NCBI RefSeq assembly: GCF_013745115.1
Contig: NZ_CP051151.1
Location: 1,054,001-1,118,000, forward strand
Origin: Hujiaoplasma nucleasis
GTDB lineage: Bacteria > Bacillota_I > Bacilli_A > Izemoplasmatales > Hujiaoplasmataceae
Direction: 5' to 3'
Length of the DNA stretch: 64,000 nt
Translations under genes and position numbers: made by a program
The notes under the pieces: generated by a model
What the model was told of the DNA's origin: nothing
What the model saw: the letters and a program-made list of their open reading frames with translations, nothing else
Databases searched by the model: none
In this document: positions 4,403 to 43,441 of the stretch, in pieces
Layout: every line of letters starts with the position of its first letter
Position numbering within the stretch: position 1 is the stretch's first letter

Positions 4403-4478
4403 TGGTGACCCGTACGGGATTCGAACCCGTGAATGCATGCGTGAAAGGCATGTGAGTTAACCGTTTCTCCAACGGGCC
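4403..4478 (-). tRNA. tRNA-Glu (UUC)
   Basis: A 76-nt cloverleaf with encoded CCA. The acceptor stem is GGCCCGT/ACGGGTC with one G-U pair, the T-loop is GGTTCGAATCC, and the anticodon is TTC in CCTTTCACG. It is the last gene of the rRNA operon and the likely attachment site for the insertion at 2892-4363. Confidence 0.95.
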
Positions 4479-4485
4479 ATATTAA

Positions 4486-4562
4486 TGGCGCCCCAACTAG
4501 GACTTGAACCTAGGACCCCATGATTAACAGTCATGTGCTCTGACCAACTGAGCTATTGAGGC
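4486..4562 (-). tRNA. tRNA-Asn (GUU)
   Basis: A 77-nt cloverleaf with encoded CCA. The acceptor stem GCCTCAA pairs with TTGGGGC, and the anticodon loop reads CTGTTAA with anticodon GTT. It lies between 5S rRNA and tRNA-Glu, 7 nt from the latter, and is part of the same transcript. Confidence 0.95.
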
Positions 4563-4576
4563 AAAGGTTAGAAAGA

Positions 4577-4690
<114 letters not shown>

Positions 4691-4721
4691 TTCTTTCAAA
4701 ACTGAATAAATTGTATTATGC

Positions 4722-7559
<2,838 letters not shown>

Positions 7560-7568
<9 letters not shown>

Positions 7569-7593
7569 GCTACAATTTATTCACTTTTCAAAG
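7560..7593 (-). other. Pre-23S processing stem, 5' arm
   Basis: On the minus strand this flank carries GTGAATAAATTGTA...GCAAAGTTAAG. The 3' flank at about 4693-4727 is its reverse complement with a short internal gap. Base pairing would bring the 23S ends together for RNase III-type maturation, as is known for bacterial rRNA precursors. Confidence 0.7.
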
Positions 7594-7661
7594 ATCTTTC
7601 TAAAATTTTTTTAAAAATTCGCGTCGCAAGGACTTTTTTTAAAGTCCGATAGACATTTTTT

Positions 7662-7749
7662 TATGAACTTTCTTTAGAAAGTTCTCTTTCTATGAACTTC
7701 ATTTATTGAAGTTCTCTTTCTATGAACTTTCTTTAGAAAGTTCTCTTTC
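7662..7749 (-). repeat. Three tandem hairpin repeats in the 16S-23S spacer
   Basis: Three 29-30 bp units (7662-7690, 7691-7720, 7721-7749) share TATGAACTT...AAGTTCTCTTTC. Each holds an 8-bp stem: GAACTTTC/GAAAGTTC in units 1 and 3, GAACTTCA/TGAAGTTC in unit 2. The changes in unit 2 are compensatory, so the hairpin is conserved rather than the sequence. A fourth hairpin, GGACTTT/AAAGTCC, lies at 7630-7647. The spacer holds no tRNA gene. Confidence 0.85.
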
Positions 7750-7760
7750 AAGAAACATAG

Positions 7761-7795
7761 TCCCTGAAAACCAAACATATACGATACTCAAAACG
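7761..7795 (-). other. Pre-16S processing stem, 3' arm
   Basis: The RNA of this stretch can pair over roughly 30 positions with the 16S leader at 9422-9455; the shared core is CGTATATGTT. Pairing of the flanks loops out 16S for maturation. Complementarity is seen directly; the role follows from known rRNA processing. Confidence 0.7.
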
Positions 7796-7797
7796 CT

Positions 7798-9345
<1,548 letters not shown>

Positions 9346-37568: not shown

Positions 37569-38438
37569 TTAAATTTGATTTTCTTTCTTTTTTAAATTAA
37601 TTAAAACAAAGGTCATCCTATCCAGTCCTTGCATATCTTTTAGAGTAAAAACTTCAGCTTGTGGATAAGTTTCTTTTACCAGTTTATTAATCTCTTCAGC
37701 CTTATCATAAGCATGTTCAAAAGCCATCATGGCTTTATCTTTTAATATCGTTTTTGAGTCATTGATGATTTGTTTATAGAATTTTAAACCATCTTCCCCA
37801 CCAAACAAAGCTAAATGGGGTTCATTATCTAATATTAAAGGGTCTACTTGCTCAATGGTAGGAATATAAGGCGGATTAGATACTAAAATATCAAATTTTT
37901 GATTCTTTACAGGATCAATCATATCTCCTTGATAAAAATCAATATCAGCATTTAATAAATCAGCATTTTCTTTAGCTAATGCTAGAGCTTCATGAGATAT
38001 ATCCGTTGCGGAAACTTTAAAATGAGCTTCTTCTTTTGCTAAAGAGATAGCTAAACACCCAGATCCAGTCCCAATATCAACCAAGGATACTTGTCTATTA
38101 GAGAAATACTCATCGTATAACATTAAGACATTCGCAACCAATTCTTCTGTTTCAAATCTAGGTATTAAAGCCTGATCAGTGACTTTAAATTTATAACCAT
38201 AAAAATAGACATAGCCAATAATTTGTTGAACAGGTTTATTATGGTCTAAATATAAACTTAAAGCCTTATAAAATTCATCTTGGCTTTCTTGGGGCATAGG
38301 TTCATCATATTTTAAATATAAATCCGTGGGTTCTAACTTAGAAAAATGCAACATGAGTAACTCAGTTGCACTGGTTTCTTTATTGACTTTTCTAGTTTGT
38401 TTTTTTGCATCTTGTAAAACTTGTTTATAAGTAGCCAT
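37569..38438 (-). CDS. prmC: Release factor glutamine methyltransferase
   Basis: PrmC methylates the Gln of the GGQ motif in release factors. The 289-residue protein has the SAM site VDIGTGSGCLAISLA and the catalytic NPPY (VSNPPYIP). Its start overlaps the prfA stop by one base, and its substrate is encoded by the gene just upstream. Confidence 0.95.
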   Translation of the reverse strand: MATYKQVLQDAKKQTRKVNKETSATELLMLHFSKLEPTDLYLKYDEPMPQESQDEFYKALSLYLDHNKPVQQIIGYVYFYGYKFKVTDQALIPRFETEELVANVLMLYDEYFSNRQVSLVDIGTGSGCLAISLAKEEAHFKVSATDISHEALALAKENADLLNADIDFYQGDMIDPVKNQKFDILVSNPPYIPTIEQVDPLILDNEPHLALFGGEDGLKFYKQIINDSKTILKDKAMMAFEHAYDKAEEINKLVKETYPQAEVFTLKDMQGLDRMTFVLINLKKKENQI

Positions 38439-39502
38439 TATTGTTTTTCTAACTTTCTTTTTTGTTCTTCAGAAATTAAAGCTTCAATCACTGCTTCTAA
38501 TCTTCCATCAATAATACGGTCTAATTGTTGGATGGTTAGGTTAATGCGGTGATCAGTCACCCTGTTTTGTGGATAGTTATAAGTTCTAATTTTCTCTGAA
38601 CGATCTCCAGTACCAATCTTAGACTTTCTTTCTCCAGCTTCTTTTTCTTGAGCTTCTTGAAGCATTTTATCATAAAGTCTTGATCTTAAGATTTTTAAGG
38701 CAGAAGCCTTATTTTCATGTTGAGACTTCCCATCTTGACATTGAGCTACTGTATCTGTTGGTATATGGGTAACCCTAACCGCTGACTTGGTGGTGTTGAC
38801 TGATTGACCCCCTGGTCCAGAAGAACAATAAGTATCAACCCTAATGTCTTGCATATCTATTTCAAAATCAATTTCTTCAGCTTCTGGTAAGACAACAACA
38901 GTCGCTGTTGATGTATGAACTCTTCCAGAGGATTCAGTTTGAGGTACTCTTTGCACCCTATGAACCCCTGATTCATATTTCATATGAGAATATACACTAT
39001 CTCCTGAAACCATAAATTCAATTTGTGAATATCCACCAGCTTCTTTAGGTTCAGCTGATAAAACTTCTATCTTCCATTCCATGTGTTCAGCGTATTTACT
39101 ATACATTCTGAATAGGTCTCCAGCGAAAATATTAGCTTCATCTCCACCAGCTGCCCCTCTAATCTCAACGATAACATTTTTTTCATCATTAGGATCTTTA
39201 GGAATTAATAATAATTCTAACTCTTCTTCAAGTATTGGAATTCTATTGTTAATTTCTTCCAATTCCATCTCAGCCATTTCTTTAATTTCAGGATCAGTCT
39301 CTTTAGACATTTCCTTTAATCCATCCAATTGGCTTAATAATTGTTTATATTCACGGTATTTAACCACTGTTTTTTCTAATTTAGAATATTCTTTGGCTAA
39401 TTCTGTAACTTTTTTAATATCCGTGGCTACTTCAGGATTTGACATCTGCTTGCCAATCTCTGTATATCTTTCTTCTATTTGTTCTAATCTATCTGCTAAC
39501 AT
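38438..39502 (-). CDS. prfA: Peptide chain release factor 1
   Basis: RF1 ends translation at UAA and UAG. The 354 residues include the peptidyl-transfer motif GPGGQSVN and a normal C-terminus. It starts 1 nt after dnaB with a strong AAGGGG ribosome site. Because TGA is also a stop here, an RF2 gene should exist elsewhere. Confidence 0.97.
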   Translation of the reverse strand: MLADRLEQIEERYTEIGKQMSNPEVATDIKKVTELAKEYSKLEKTVVKYREYKQLLSQLDGLKEMSKETDPEIKEMAEMELEEINNRIPILEEELELLLIPKDPNDEKNVIVEIRGAAGGDEANIFAGDLFRMYSKYAEHMEWKIEVLSAEPKEAGGYSQIEFMVSGDSVYSHMKYESGVHRVQRVPQTESSGRVHTSTATVVVLPEAEEIDFEIDMQDIRVDTYCSSGPGGQSVNTTKSAVRVTHIPTDTVAQCQDGKSQHENKASALKILRSRLYDKMLQEAQEKEAGERKSKIGTGDRSEKIRTYNYPQNRVTDHRINLTIQQLDRIIDGRLEAVIEALISEEQKRKLEKQ

Positions 39503-39503
39503 A

Positions 39504-40835
39504 TTACCCCTTCAGTCCGCTATTAAATTCTCCAGAGAATTTAGAAGTGTTTTTGTTAAATAACAACTCAAAATCCCCAGGTTGTCCATGCCTGTTTTTA
39601 GCCACCACAAATTGTGTGATGTTTTGTCTTGATTCATCTTGTTTATCTTCTTCTTTAACATATAAGAAAATAATAATATCCGCATCTTGTTCAATAGATC
39701 CAGATTCTCTTAAATCTGACATTCTTGGTGTTTTATCTGGTCTTTGTTCAAGATTACGAGATAATTGCGAAAGCGCCACAACAGGCACTTTTAACTCTCT
39801 TGCCATTTCTTTTAATACCCGAGAAATTTCAGATACTTCCTGTACTCTATTTCCCTTATTATGTTGTGAACCACTTAATAACTGTAAGTAGTCAACAATC
39901 ACTAAATCTAATTTATTATCTTGTTTTAATTTACGACATTTACTTCTTAAATCCAATACTTGTACAGTACCAGAATCATCAAAATAGATATTTGAGCCTT
40001 TAAGATTATGAACACCTGTTTGTAATCTTTCCCACTCGTATTGTTTTAAATCACCTTTTCTTAAAGATGTATTATCTACAGATGAAACTGAAGATAACAA
40101 TCTCATCACCAATTGTTCTACACCCATTTCCAATGAGAAAAAGGCAATATGAGGTGCCTTAGGCAACATCCCAATATTCAATGCTAAATTTAAAGCAAAG
40201 GCTGTTTTCCCAATCCCTGGTCTAGCAGCTACAATTAATAAATCTGAAGGCTGTAAACCTAAGGTGTATCGGTTGAATTGGTAATAACCCGTATCTAGAC
40301 CACTAATTTCATTAGCATGTTGGGCTTGTTCAGCAATTTTAGCTAGAGTTTTCTCAGCAGCTTCTGCTATATTAACAAAATCAGTTGATCTTCTATCTTT
40401 AGTAATATTAAATATTTCTTTTTCTACTTGATCGATAAAATGAGGCGTATCTTCAACAGAACGGGAGGCTTCAATTAAAGATGTAAAACTTTCTTGAAGT
40501 TTACGTAAGACTGACTTATCTTTAACAATATTGATGTACTCCATCAAATTGGCAGTTGAAGGCACTACTGAAGAAAGGTAGACAATGTATTCTCTTCCAC
40601 CTGCTTTTTCTAAAGTATTAATATTTTCAAGGAAATTGCTGACGGTAATGGCATCAATAGAATTACCATTTTTAAATAACTTTAAAATGGCTTCATATAT
40701 CTCTTGATGTGAAGGATTATAAAAATCTTCTACAGTCAACTTATCCGCTATGGTTTTTATTTCGCTCTCACTGAAAAAGATGGAACCTAATACTGATTCT
40801 TCTGCTTCTTGAGAATATGGTGTCTTAATCTCCAT
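39504..40835 (-). CDS. dnaB: Replicative DNA helicase
   Basis: The hexameric fork helicase (named dnaC in Bacillus). The 443 residues have the N-terminal domain starting TPYSQEAEESVLGS and the RecA-like motor with Walker A AARPGIGKTAFALN and LDLVIVDYLQLL. It lies 9 nt after the rplI end, in the usual gdpP-rplI-dnaB order. No intein is present. Confidence 0.97.
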   Translation of the reverse strand: MEIKTPYSQEAEESVLGSIFFSESEIKTIADKLTVEDFYNPSHQEIYEAILKLFKNGNSIDAITVSNFLENINTLEKAGGREYIVYLSSVVPSTANLMEYINIVKDKSVLRKLQESFTSLIEASRSVEDTPHFIDQVEKEIFNITKDRRSTDFVNIAEAAEKTLAKIAEQAQHANEISGLDTGYYQFNRYTLGLQPSDLLIVAARPGIGKTAFALNLALNIGMLPKAPHIAFFSLEMGVEQLVMRLLSSVSSVDNTSLRKGDLKQYEWERLQTGVHNLKGSNIYFDDSGTVQVLDLRSKCRKLKQDNKLDLVIVDYLQLLSGSQHNKGNRVQEVSEISRVLKEMARELKVPVVALSQLSRNLEQRPDKTPRMSDLRESGSIEQDADIIIFLYVKEEDKQDESRQNITQFVVAKNRHGQPGDFELLFNKNTSKFSGEFNSGLKG

Positions 40836-40844
40836 AAATACCCT

Positions 40845-41291
40845 CTATTCTTTTTCTAATACTTGAACATCTATCGTTGCAACAACATCTTTATGTAACT
40901 TAACTTCAATATCAAAATTACCTAAAGAGTTAATTTTATCATCTAAAGCAATTTTACGTTTATCCACAATAATATTATGTTGTTTTTTTAGTTCATCAGC
41001 GATTTGTTTGGTATTGACTGAACCAAATAATTTACCAGTATCACCTATTTTTACATAAAGACTAATAGGACTCTTTTCGATTAATTCTTTAAGTTCTAAA
41101 GCTTCTTTATGAGCCTTGTCTTCTTTTTCTTTTTTTTCAGTTAAATCTCTCTCTAGAGCTTCCATATTGGCAGTATTGGCTTTGATTGCGTGTTTTGATG
41201 TTAACAAGTAATTGCCATAACCTGTAGCGACTTCAATCACATCACCTTTTTTACCTCTACCTTTAACATCTTTAATCAAAATGACTTTCAT
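40845..41291 (-). CDS. rplI: Ribosomal protein L9 from an internal start
   Basis: The 148-residue L9 begins MKVILIKDVKGRGKKGDVIEVA, the normal family start, with the N-terminal domain, the long central helix rich in Lys/Glu and the C-terminal domain. The ATG at 41291 has a perfect Shine-Dalgarno AAGGAGG (41306-41300) at 8 nt. Since every ribosome needs a soluble L9, internal initiation is the most likely source. It is nested in the gdpP frame. Confidence 0.9.
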   Translation of the reverse strand: MKVILIKDVKGRGKKGDVIEVATGYGNYLLTSKHAIKANTANMEALERDLTEKKEKEDKAHKEALELKELIEKSPISLYVKIGDTGKLFGSVNTKQIADELKKQHNIIVDKRKIALDDKINSLGNFDIEVKLHKDVVATIDVQVLEKE

Positions 41292-43292
41292 GGTCGTTTC
41301 CTCCTTATATGTACTTTCTATTAATTTTTCAATTTTATCTATAACTTCATCCGTATTTGAATTCTTAATTTGGGCAGCGGCATTATTTAAATGGCCTCCA
41401 CCACCAAATTTTTCCATCATCACAGACACATTAAAGTTGCTGACAGACCTAGCAGAAATTCCGATGGTTGAACCATCCAATTTACCCACAGCAAAAGCAG
41501 CGATGATGTTATCGATTTCTAATAATTCATCTGCTGTTTTAGCAAGTTGGACTCGATCAGTTGTCTCTACTTCATCCAAAGAAGTAATGGCAAATCTATC
41601 ATCAATAATTCTAGCTTTATTAACCAAATTTGATTTAGTTCTAATATCATCTAGTGATTCTCTTAAGATTAACCTAGCTTGTGATGGATCTGCGCCTAAA
41701 TTTCTTAATTTAGCAGCTGCTTCAAATGTTCTAGCGCCAGTTCTATGAGAAAAATTATTGGTGTCAATCATCATTCCCGCCAACATAATGGTTGCTTCAA
41801 ATTTATGAATTTCAATTTCATCTTCAAAAAAATCTACCAATTCAGTGACAAGTTCAACCGAAGATGAAGCATAAGGTTCAACATAGTTCATTAATAAATC
41901 CGGAATAGCTTCATGTATTCTTCGATGATGATCTATAACAATAATATTCTTTGTCTTATCTATCATCTCAGGTGCATTGGATTGAACTGGTGAATGATGG
42001 TCAACAATAATAAGTAAGGTATTTTGGTTAACCTTATTTAAAGCTTCTTGAGGTTCAATCACATATTCTAACAACTTAATATATTCATGTTCTAACATAT
42101 TAAATACTTTTTGTGTTGTTTGATCAATATCATCAAAATCAATAATGATTTTAATTGCCTTACCCTTGGCTATACCCATTTCCAATAAACCTATAGCCGC
42201 TCCTAAAGCGTCAATATCAGTTGTTTTATGTGGCATAATATATACATTCTCAGCTTCAGCAATATAATCGCTCAATGCATTTGAATTTACTTTTGCAGTA
42301 ATTTTAGAAGATTTTTCAACAGTATTAGAACGACCACCAAAAAACTTAATAGGTTGATTTTTAAAGTTAACAACCACTTGATCGCCACCGCGATCTATGG
42401 CTAACTTTAATGCTTCCTCAGCGTATTCACCAAGTCTTGATGCATCTTCATCAAAAGAGGCTATACCCATAGATAAGGAAACTCGAATATCCTTTTCTTC
42501 TGCTTTAGCAGTAATTTGATCTAAGATAGGGAAACCTTCTTCGATAAACTCATCAATTTTCTTACGATTAGTAATTATAATGGCCCTATCTACTCTTAAA
42601 GAAATAAAATAAATATGATTTTCTTCACACCAATGATTTAAAATCCCAAGTAAAGATCCTTCTATAGAAGATTTGGTTTGGTAATCCATATTGGTTGTGG
42701 CTTCTACATAGTTATCTAAAGATAAAATTCCAACAGCATTTTGATTCTCAAAATATTTCTTTTTTATTTCTTCTCTTTCAGTTACTTCAAAGAAATAAAC
42801 TGTCTTATTTTTAGGATAATGAACAGCATCAAATAATTTATCGTACAACTCCACCATAAATTTTCCAACACGTTTTTCAACATTATCACATAAGTCTTTA
42901 TTTAATAAACATAAAGGTCTTTCAACCAAAACATTAGAAAAATATTCTTTAGCAGCGTTATTGGCATAAGAAATATTGAAATCATCATCATAAATAATGA
43001 TACCAACCGGTAAATAGTTTAAAGCAATGTCTTCATTATTTAACTTTCTCTTATTAATAGCGTTGGTTTCTCTAATCTTTGTTTCAAGTTGTTCAATACG
43101 CAATCTTCTTTGTCTTGATATGTATTCAAATAATAAAATACCAATAAAAATAATGAAAATAACAATATTGAAAAAAGTATAAATATACAAATTATATAAG
43201 GGGTGAATAAAGTGAAAAACAAAAGATAATATCACCAATAAAACATAATTGAATGTCAGGAATATATGAAACTTATTAAAGAACTTTTTCAT
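40845..43292 (-). CDS. gdpP: In-frame fusion of c-di-AMP phosphodiesterase GdpP and ribosomal protein L9
   Basis: An 815-codon frame. Residues 1-667 are GdpP: two membrane helices (about 10-60), a PAS-like region, a degenerate GGDEF domain, and DHH/DHHA1 phosphodiesterase domains (DIDALGAAIG, IIVDHH, IDHHRR, GGGGHLNNAAAQI). In other Firmicutes this protein breaks down cyclic di-AMP. The final 148 residues are a complete L9. No stop codon lies between them; the junction codons contain a full AAGGAGG followed 8 nt later by the L9 ATG. So the frame may yield a membrane-bound GdpP-L9 fusion, a separate L9, or both. The start follows AGGAGAAA. Confidence 0.93.
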   Translation of the reverse strand: MKKFFNKFHIFLTFNYVLLVILSFVFHFIHPLYNLYIYTFFNIVIFIIFIGILLFEYISRQRRLRIEQLETKIRETNAINKRKLNNEDIALNYLPVGIIIYDDDFNISYANNAAKEYFSNVLVERPLCLLNKDLCDNVEKRVGKFMVELYDKLFDAVHYPKNKTVYFFEVTEREEIKKKYFENQNAVGILSLDNYVEATTNMDYQTKSSIEGSLLGILNHWCEENHIYFISLRVDRAIIITNRKKIDEFIEEGFPILDQITAKAEEKDIRVSLSMGIASFDEDASRLGEYAEEALKLAIDRGGDQVVVNFKNQPIKFFGGRSNTVEKSSKITAKVNSNALSDYIAEAENVYIMPHKTTDIDALGAAIGLLEMGIAKGKAIKIIIDFDDIDQTTQKVFNMLEHEYIKLLEYVIEPQEALNKVNQNTLLIIVDHHSPVQSNAPEMIDKTKNIIVIDHHRRIHEAIPDLLMNYVEPYASSSVELVTELVDFFEDEIEIHKFEATIMLAGMMIDTNNFSHRTGARTFEAAAKLRNLGADPSQARLILRESLDDIRTKSNLVNKARIIDDRFAITSLDEVETTDRVQLAKTADELLEIDNIIAAFAVGKLDGSTIGISARSVSNFNVSVMMEKFGGGGHLNNAAAQIKNSNTDEVIDKIEKLIESTYKEETTMKVILIKDVKGRGKKGDVIEVATGYGNYLLTSKHAIKANTANMEALERDLTEKKEKEDKAHKEALELKELIEKSPISLYVKIGDTGKLFGSVNTKQIADELKKQHNIIVDKRKIALDDKINSLGNFDIEVKLHKDVVATIDVQVLEKE

Positions 43293-43417: not shown

Positions 43418-43441
43418 AGAAAAAGGCTCACATTGAGCCTT
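43418..43441 (-). terminator. Terminator after rpsR
   Basis: AAGGCTCA pairs with TGAGCCTT around a 3-nt loop and is followed by TTTTCTTTT on the minus strand. It separates rpsF-ssb-rpsR from gdpP, which has a -10-like TATAAT (complement near 43322-43329) and a weak -35. Confidence 0.85.

Follow-up and report, generated by a model that had tools for sequence, protein, structure and literature searches.

How does a cell obtain ribosomal protein L9 when the codons for this protein form the last part of an enzyme gene, and what is the standing of the enzyme that is read through into them? This question is raised by a single minus-strand open reading frame, closed by a TAG stop, in which gdpP and rplI share one frame (Table 1). 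It lies in a 64,000-nucleotide stretch of the Hujiaoplasma nucleasis genome (NZ_CP051151.1, positions 1,054,001 to 1,118,000), here called the window. The order gdpP-rplI-helicase is usual in other Firmicutes (PMC5575661), and the window gene has the same gene order, domains and catalytic residues as the separate GdpP (YybT) proteins encoded beside rplI, but in those species a stop codon splits gdpP from rplI and in the window none does (PMC5575661; PMC3711813). The three genes have been reported to be co-transcribed in other species (PMC5575661; PMC3711813), so their shared expression probably predates the fusion. Translation fidelity falls when L9 is lost (PMC4399890).

The answer developed below, which can be held with considerable confidence, is that this one gene would give rise to both a fused GdpP-L9 protein and free L9, with the open frame kept by selection.

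Layout of the fused gene and its catalogued relatives

The initial annotation had described GdpP and L9 as joined in frame without an intervening stop, and the length of the frame and the Pfam domains of both proteins bear this out. All six Pfam domains exceed their cut-offs. The order PAS, degenerate GGDEF, DHH and DHHA1 is that expected of a GdpP c-di-AMP phosphodiesterase, and it is followed by Ribosomal_L9_N (residues 668-713, PF01281) and Ribosomal_L9_C (residues 730-812, PF03948) within an L9 portion spanning residues 668-815. Residues H355, D359, D361, D431, D454-H455-H456 and D510, the last just past the DHH domain, are invariant in an alignment of 59 fused proteins, and we take them to be the metal-site and DHH residues of GdpP. 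The two N-terminal hydrophobic stretches are presumably membrane segments, a placement that follows from knowledge of GdpP. The window protein thus has the make-up of a GdpP, with c-di-AMP hydrolysis and membrane location as putative properties. Its L9 portion has the bL9 layout, in which a long helix (residues 707-740 in the AlphaFold model) lies between the N and C domains, in models that leave the arrangement of domains unfixed (pTM 0.44 for the window protein and 0.41 for that of genome G339). The nearest named relatives are Mycoplasmatota bacterium zrk2 and MAGs of Candidatus Izimaplasma / Izemoplasmatales.

Table 1. Features of the fused gene and its surroundings (window coordinates; residues are those of the fused protein)
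Feature	Position	Strand	Basis
gdpP-rplI fused gene	40845..43292	-	ORF, 815 aa; NF011110 E=2.7e-195, residues 35-814
N-terminal helices, residues 1 to about 58, two hydrophobic stretches	43119..43292	-	sequence; AlphaFold helices 2-29, 35-93
PAS domain (PAS_GdpP), residues 87-170	42783..43034	-	PF21370
GGDEF_GdpP domain, residues 191-313	42354..42722	-	PF24898
DHH domain, residues 349-507	41772..42248	-	PF01368
DHHA1 domain, residues 576-659, with GGGGH motif	41316..41567	-	PF02272
Junction, residues 660-667 (STYKEETT)	41292..41315	-	ordinary GdpP tail, no added linker
Shine-Dalgarno AAGGAGG, translated as GdpP-frame codons	41300..41306	-	sequence, 16S pairing
Predicted internal start codon of L9 (ATG), in frame	41289..41291	-	start codon in 163/163 single-copy fused genes
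L9 (bL9) domain, 148 codons	40848..41291	-	TIGR00158, 129.5 bits, cut-off 58.6; genome's sole L9
Terminator-like hairpin between rpsR (upstream) and the fused gene	43423..43441	-	sequence analysis
Replicative helicase gene, 9 bases downstream of the fused gene	39504..40835	-	name from sequence reading
Release factor 1 gene, after the helicase gene	38438-39502	-	name from sequence reading

The genome, assembled as one contig of 1,808,583 bases, has L9 at one place only, and a whole-genome search found no second, separate L9 gene. The window's own 16S rRNA ends in ...GGATCACCTCCTTT, complementary to AAGGAGG, and the 3' end of its gene reads CACCTCCTTT; the positions first given for AAGGAGG and for the L9 ATG as codons of the GdpP frame proved exact. 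A regulatory RNA at the junction was considered and rejected, as there is no Rfam match and the window sequence is no more, and rather less, structured than its shuffles. Elsewhere in the window, a minus-strand rRNA operon (16S, 23S, 5S, tRNA-Asn, tRNA-Glu) occupies 4403-9345, a 29-base unit containing a palindromic core (GAACTTTCTTTAGAAAGTTC) occurs three times between its 23S and 16S genes (7658-7749), and a 45-base tandem repeat of 2.6 copies (2623-2738) falls mostly within the minus-strand ORF 1148-2821.

The GdpP-L9 fusion is already catalogued by NCBIfam, under the name "putative bifunctional signaling protein/50S ribosomal protein L9" (NF011110, PRK14538). Its domain order is that of the window protein, which matches profile positions 52-835 of 838, GdpP and L9 being read in a single open frame along the entire profile. 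The match scores 651 bits against a curated cut-off of 707, which is passed by nearly all members of family f22 and by those of f12 and f16 among the matches listed. The window protein thus lies outside the curated cut-off, though it shares the architecture and falls in one clade with the catalogued proteins. The family name is silent on internal initiation, and among the papers searched none was found that describes the fusion or uses the NF011110 name. Evidence that one gene makes two products, and that its fused tail has a role of its own, appears not to have been given before.

Distribution and origin of the fusion

Within the window's order, 86 of 90 genomes match the fused protein. The full-length matches are one open frame, and the partial matches lie, as far as inspected, on short or broken contigs. 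Among the matches listed, L9 frames of about 810-885 residues, a length that marks them as fused, occur in families f1, f2 and f3 of this order and in f7, f12, f16, f18 and f22, and L9 frames in the other families checked are near 150 residues; per-family counts are of genomes among the matches listed or fetched, not totals. Apparent fusions in f9, f20 and f5 were rejected, as an in-frame stop lies between the genes at these loci. The two genes are separate at the Lachnospiraceae loci, and the fusion was found in none of 120 genomes of the phylum to which that family belongs (longest L9 frame, 403). In searches made without code 4 retranslation, there was no GdpP match beside L9 at the f6 loci L140, L141, L156, L158 and L160, no strong NF011110 match in genomes of f6 and f17, the small-genome families where fusions hidden by recoded TGA were sought, and no open frame upstream at the long f23 locus L181.

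A missing stop codon in one genome could stem from a junction that was wrongly sequenced or assembled. Comparison of the junction with that of relatives, which the initial annotation had called for, revealed that the frame is likewise open in at least 163 genes from independent assemblies, several of them single-contig genomes. Because the fusion is present in the rest of the window's order and in five further families, a local sequencing error is excluded, and this explanation retains practically no probability. A further correction to the initial reading is that the fusion extends beyond this genome, as an architecture that is catalogued and spread across the clade.

In a tree of GdpP sequences (89 rows), all 69 fused proteins group together, and one separate, long-branched f5 protein sits at the base of the fused group without a settled position. 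The simplest reading of this tree is that the fusion arose once. The GGG(G/A)H motif is followed by 33-41 residues before L9 begins in fused genes, and separate GdpPs end 26-40 residues past the motif; this similarity identifies the junction as an ordinary GdpP tail.

The probable internal start of L9 and the open frame

The intact Shine-Dalgarno sequence had been taken in the initial annotation as a sign that free L9 is still made from an internal start. This is very probably correct, given that the start codon, the Shine-Dalgarno sequence and an open mRNA are kept in 163 fused genes that have no second L9 in tandem, drawn from eight families, and that the first two decay beside a second L9. 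At the first L9 codon, 156 of these genes have ATG, six GTG and one TTG, with no other codon used. In the genes with a GTG start, GTG makes up only 3-15% of the valine codons of the same gene. The loci at which the L9 start is now TTG or GTG, and the fused frame reads leucine or valine, are L239 (genome G077), L209, L214, L215, L295, L297 and L298.

Pairing of the Shine-Dalgarno sequence with the 16S tail has a mean energy of -10.2 kcal/mol over the 163 genes, with every value at or below -5.5, compared with a mean of -2.0 kcal/mol at 2735 other in-frame ATGs. Overall, these sites are stronger than synonymous resampling of the junction would give (Wilcoxon p 5e-21). Resampled sites are clearly weaker in f1, f2 and f7 and nearly as strong in f12, f16, f18 and f22 (few f22 genes were included, most having been added later), because the Gly-Glu peptide in the latter families itself encodes a purine-rich sequence; the codon-level evidence thus comes mainly from f1, f2 and f7. 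Peptide, frame and spacing all vary among the sites. The mRNA is also more open at the L9 start than at other ATGs (-3.3 versus -6.8 kcal/mol), and in 153 of the 163 genes it lies at or above the gene's own median. A start codon and a Shine-Dalgarno sequence are therefore conserved within the frame beyond the needs of coding, which is the pattern expected of a dual-product gene.

Free L9 could in principle also be obtained if a single polyprotein were made and a protease cut L9 from it. The junction is short and is modelled with lower confidence (pLDDT 67 around residues 661-670), but junction peptides vary so widely among families that no cleavage motif is visible, and proteolysis leaves unexplained why a start codon and a Shine-Dalgarno sequence are constant at the first L9 codon. 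Such processing is accordingly judged very improbable, and ribosomal L9 is most likely supplied by internal initiation.

Genes that yield two in-frame products in this way include infB (IF2), cheA and clpB, in which a short product is started from an internal Shine-Dalgarno sequence and start codon alongside the long one. The fused gene differs from these in that its short product would be a whole ribosomal protein, formerly encoded by a separate gene. A ribosomal protein behind an enzyme is also found in some Firmicutes, where IspH is fused to ribosomal protein S1; the partners there are different.

If only free L9 and GdpP activity mattered to the cell, the loss of the stop codon could have been harmless and the tail an idle leftover. 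This would agree with a junction that is ordinary GdpP tail and with a tail that brings nothing recognisable to the active site. Yet no stop codon lies between gdpP and rplI in any of the 163 single-copy genes, a set chosen as open frames upstream of L9, for which the absence of separated near relatives rests on L9 frame lengths. Among the last 12 codons, about 6.7 are a single base change from a stop, and roughly 96 stop gains would be expected there if changes were free, an estimate that takes the length of an amino-acid tree for nucleotide changes per site and leaves constraint out of account. An idle tail is also at odds with the released tails described below, which in two lineages have kept their full length and show purifying selection, and this explanation is considered quite unlikely.

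Genomes with a second L9 gene

There are five genomes in which a second, free L9 gene directly follows the fused one: G333, G339 and G501 (genus g89, f7) and G159 and G516 (genus g86, f22), all of them draft assemblies, with listed contig numbers of 30 to 140 and contamination of up to 6%. The tandem loci are L166, L167, L168, L334 and L335. As the g89 and g86 groups stand apart in both the GdpP and the L9 trees, the second L9 was gained at least twice. In a further g89 genome, G163 (97% complete), neither L9 nor a strongly scoring GdpP was found, through either loss or an assembly gap; both occur in tandem in its relatives.

In the fused copies of these genomes, the Shine-Dalgarno sequence is lost in five of five (energies +0.4 to -2.4); those of the three g89 genomes have lost the L9 start codon as well (ACT, AAG, AAG). 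Each free copy starts with ATG, and Shine-Dalgarno energies there are -5.7 to -10.3. That the internal start decays where it is superfluous argues that it normally makes ribosomal L9. The tails released from this duty remain open over 146-150 residues, and both L9 Pfam domains are still recognised in them. Values of dN/dS for the fused L9 are 0.33 (G339-G501) and 0.11 (G159-G516), which indicates purifying selection in two close pairs; the distant tails of G333 and G501 give a value near 0.9, for which saturation is likely. The long helix is kept in the model of the G339 tail. Retention of a tail that is superfluous as L9, together with the lack of stops in single-copy genes, is an argument that the cell benefits from the fused protein. 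The initial proposal that some GdpP carries an L9 tail thereby gains indirect support as to the importance of the fused product; as to its actual occurrence, we infer from these patterns that both proteins are present in cells.

What the tail does is a more difficult matter. The initial annotation had raised the prospect of docking, in which the tail would hold the membrane phosphodiesterase at the ribosome by way of 23S rRNA and couple c-di-AMP breakdown to translation. The tail of single-copy species is a complete L9 that keeps on average 95% of 32 conserved positions, but production of free L9 from the same codons would by itself account for this conservation. Released tails keep 19-23 of these positions and free copies 26-27, and G24 and G90 are lost from all five released tails and kept in every free partner. 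Furthermore, the N terminus of L9 would have to bear a membrane protein over a hinge no longer than about five residues. The basic loop of the N domain is partly kept even in some released tails, so docking is weakened rather than refuted; the comparison does not support an anchor of this kind, which is rated as unlikely. Given the loss from released tails of residues retained by ribosomal L9, an action of the tail on the enzyme itself, in its assembly, stability or regulation, seems likelier than docking.

The course of events that best fits these observations would begin in an ancestor of the Bacilli clade, where loss of the gdpP stop codon may have let ribosomes on gdpP continue into rplI. 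The first product would be a full-length membrane c-di-AMP phosphodiesterase with a C-terminal L9 tail, and the second would be free L9 for the ribosome, initiated at the internal ATG by way of the Shine-Dalgarno sequence inside the GdpP tail. Selection would hold the internal start in genomes with no other source of L9, and would hold the open frame everywhere. Where a second, adjacent L9 gene was gained, the internal start decayed and the tail persisted. A more ambitious reading, offered tentatively as something possible rather than expected, is that the captured L9 has become a working domain of a clade-wide enzyme. In that case c-di-AMP breakdown might be tied to ribosomes or RNA, or controlled through a tail of the L9 fold, while the same codons serve as the sole ribosomal L9 and the tail becomes a domain in its own right after duplication.

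The findings carry a warning for annotation, since gene calls in these genomes may show L9 merely as the last part of a signaling protein and overlook its internal start. Across a large clade of Bacilli related to Izemoplasma, a ribosomal protein would rely on a start site located inside the coding sequence of an enzyme. Two duplication events have parted the two duties by natural experiment, and these may offer a route to the role of the L9 tail in a c-di-AMP enzyme.
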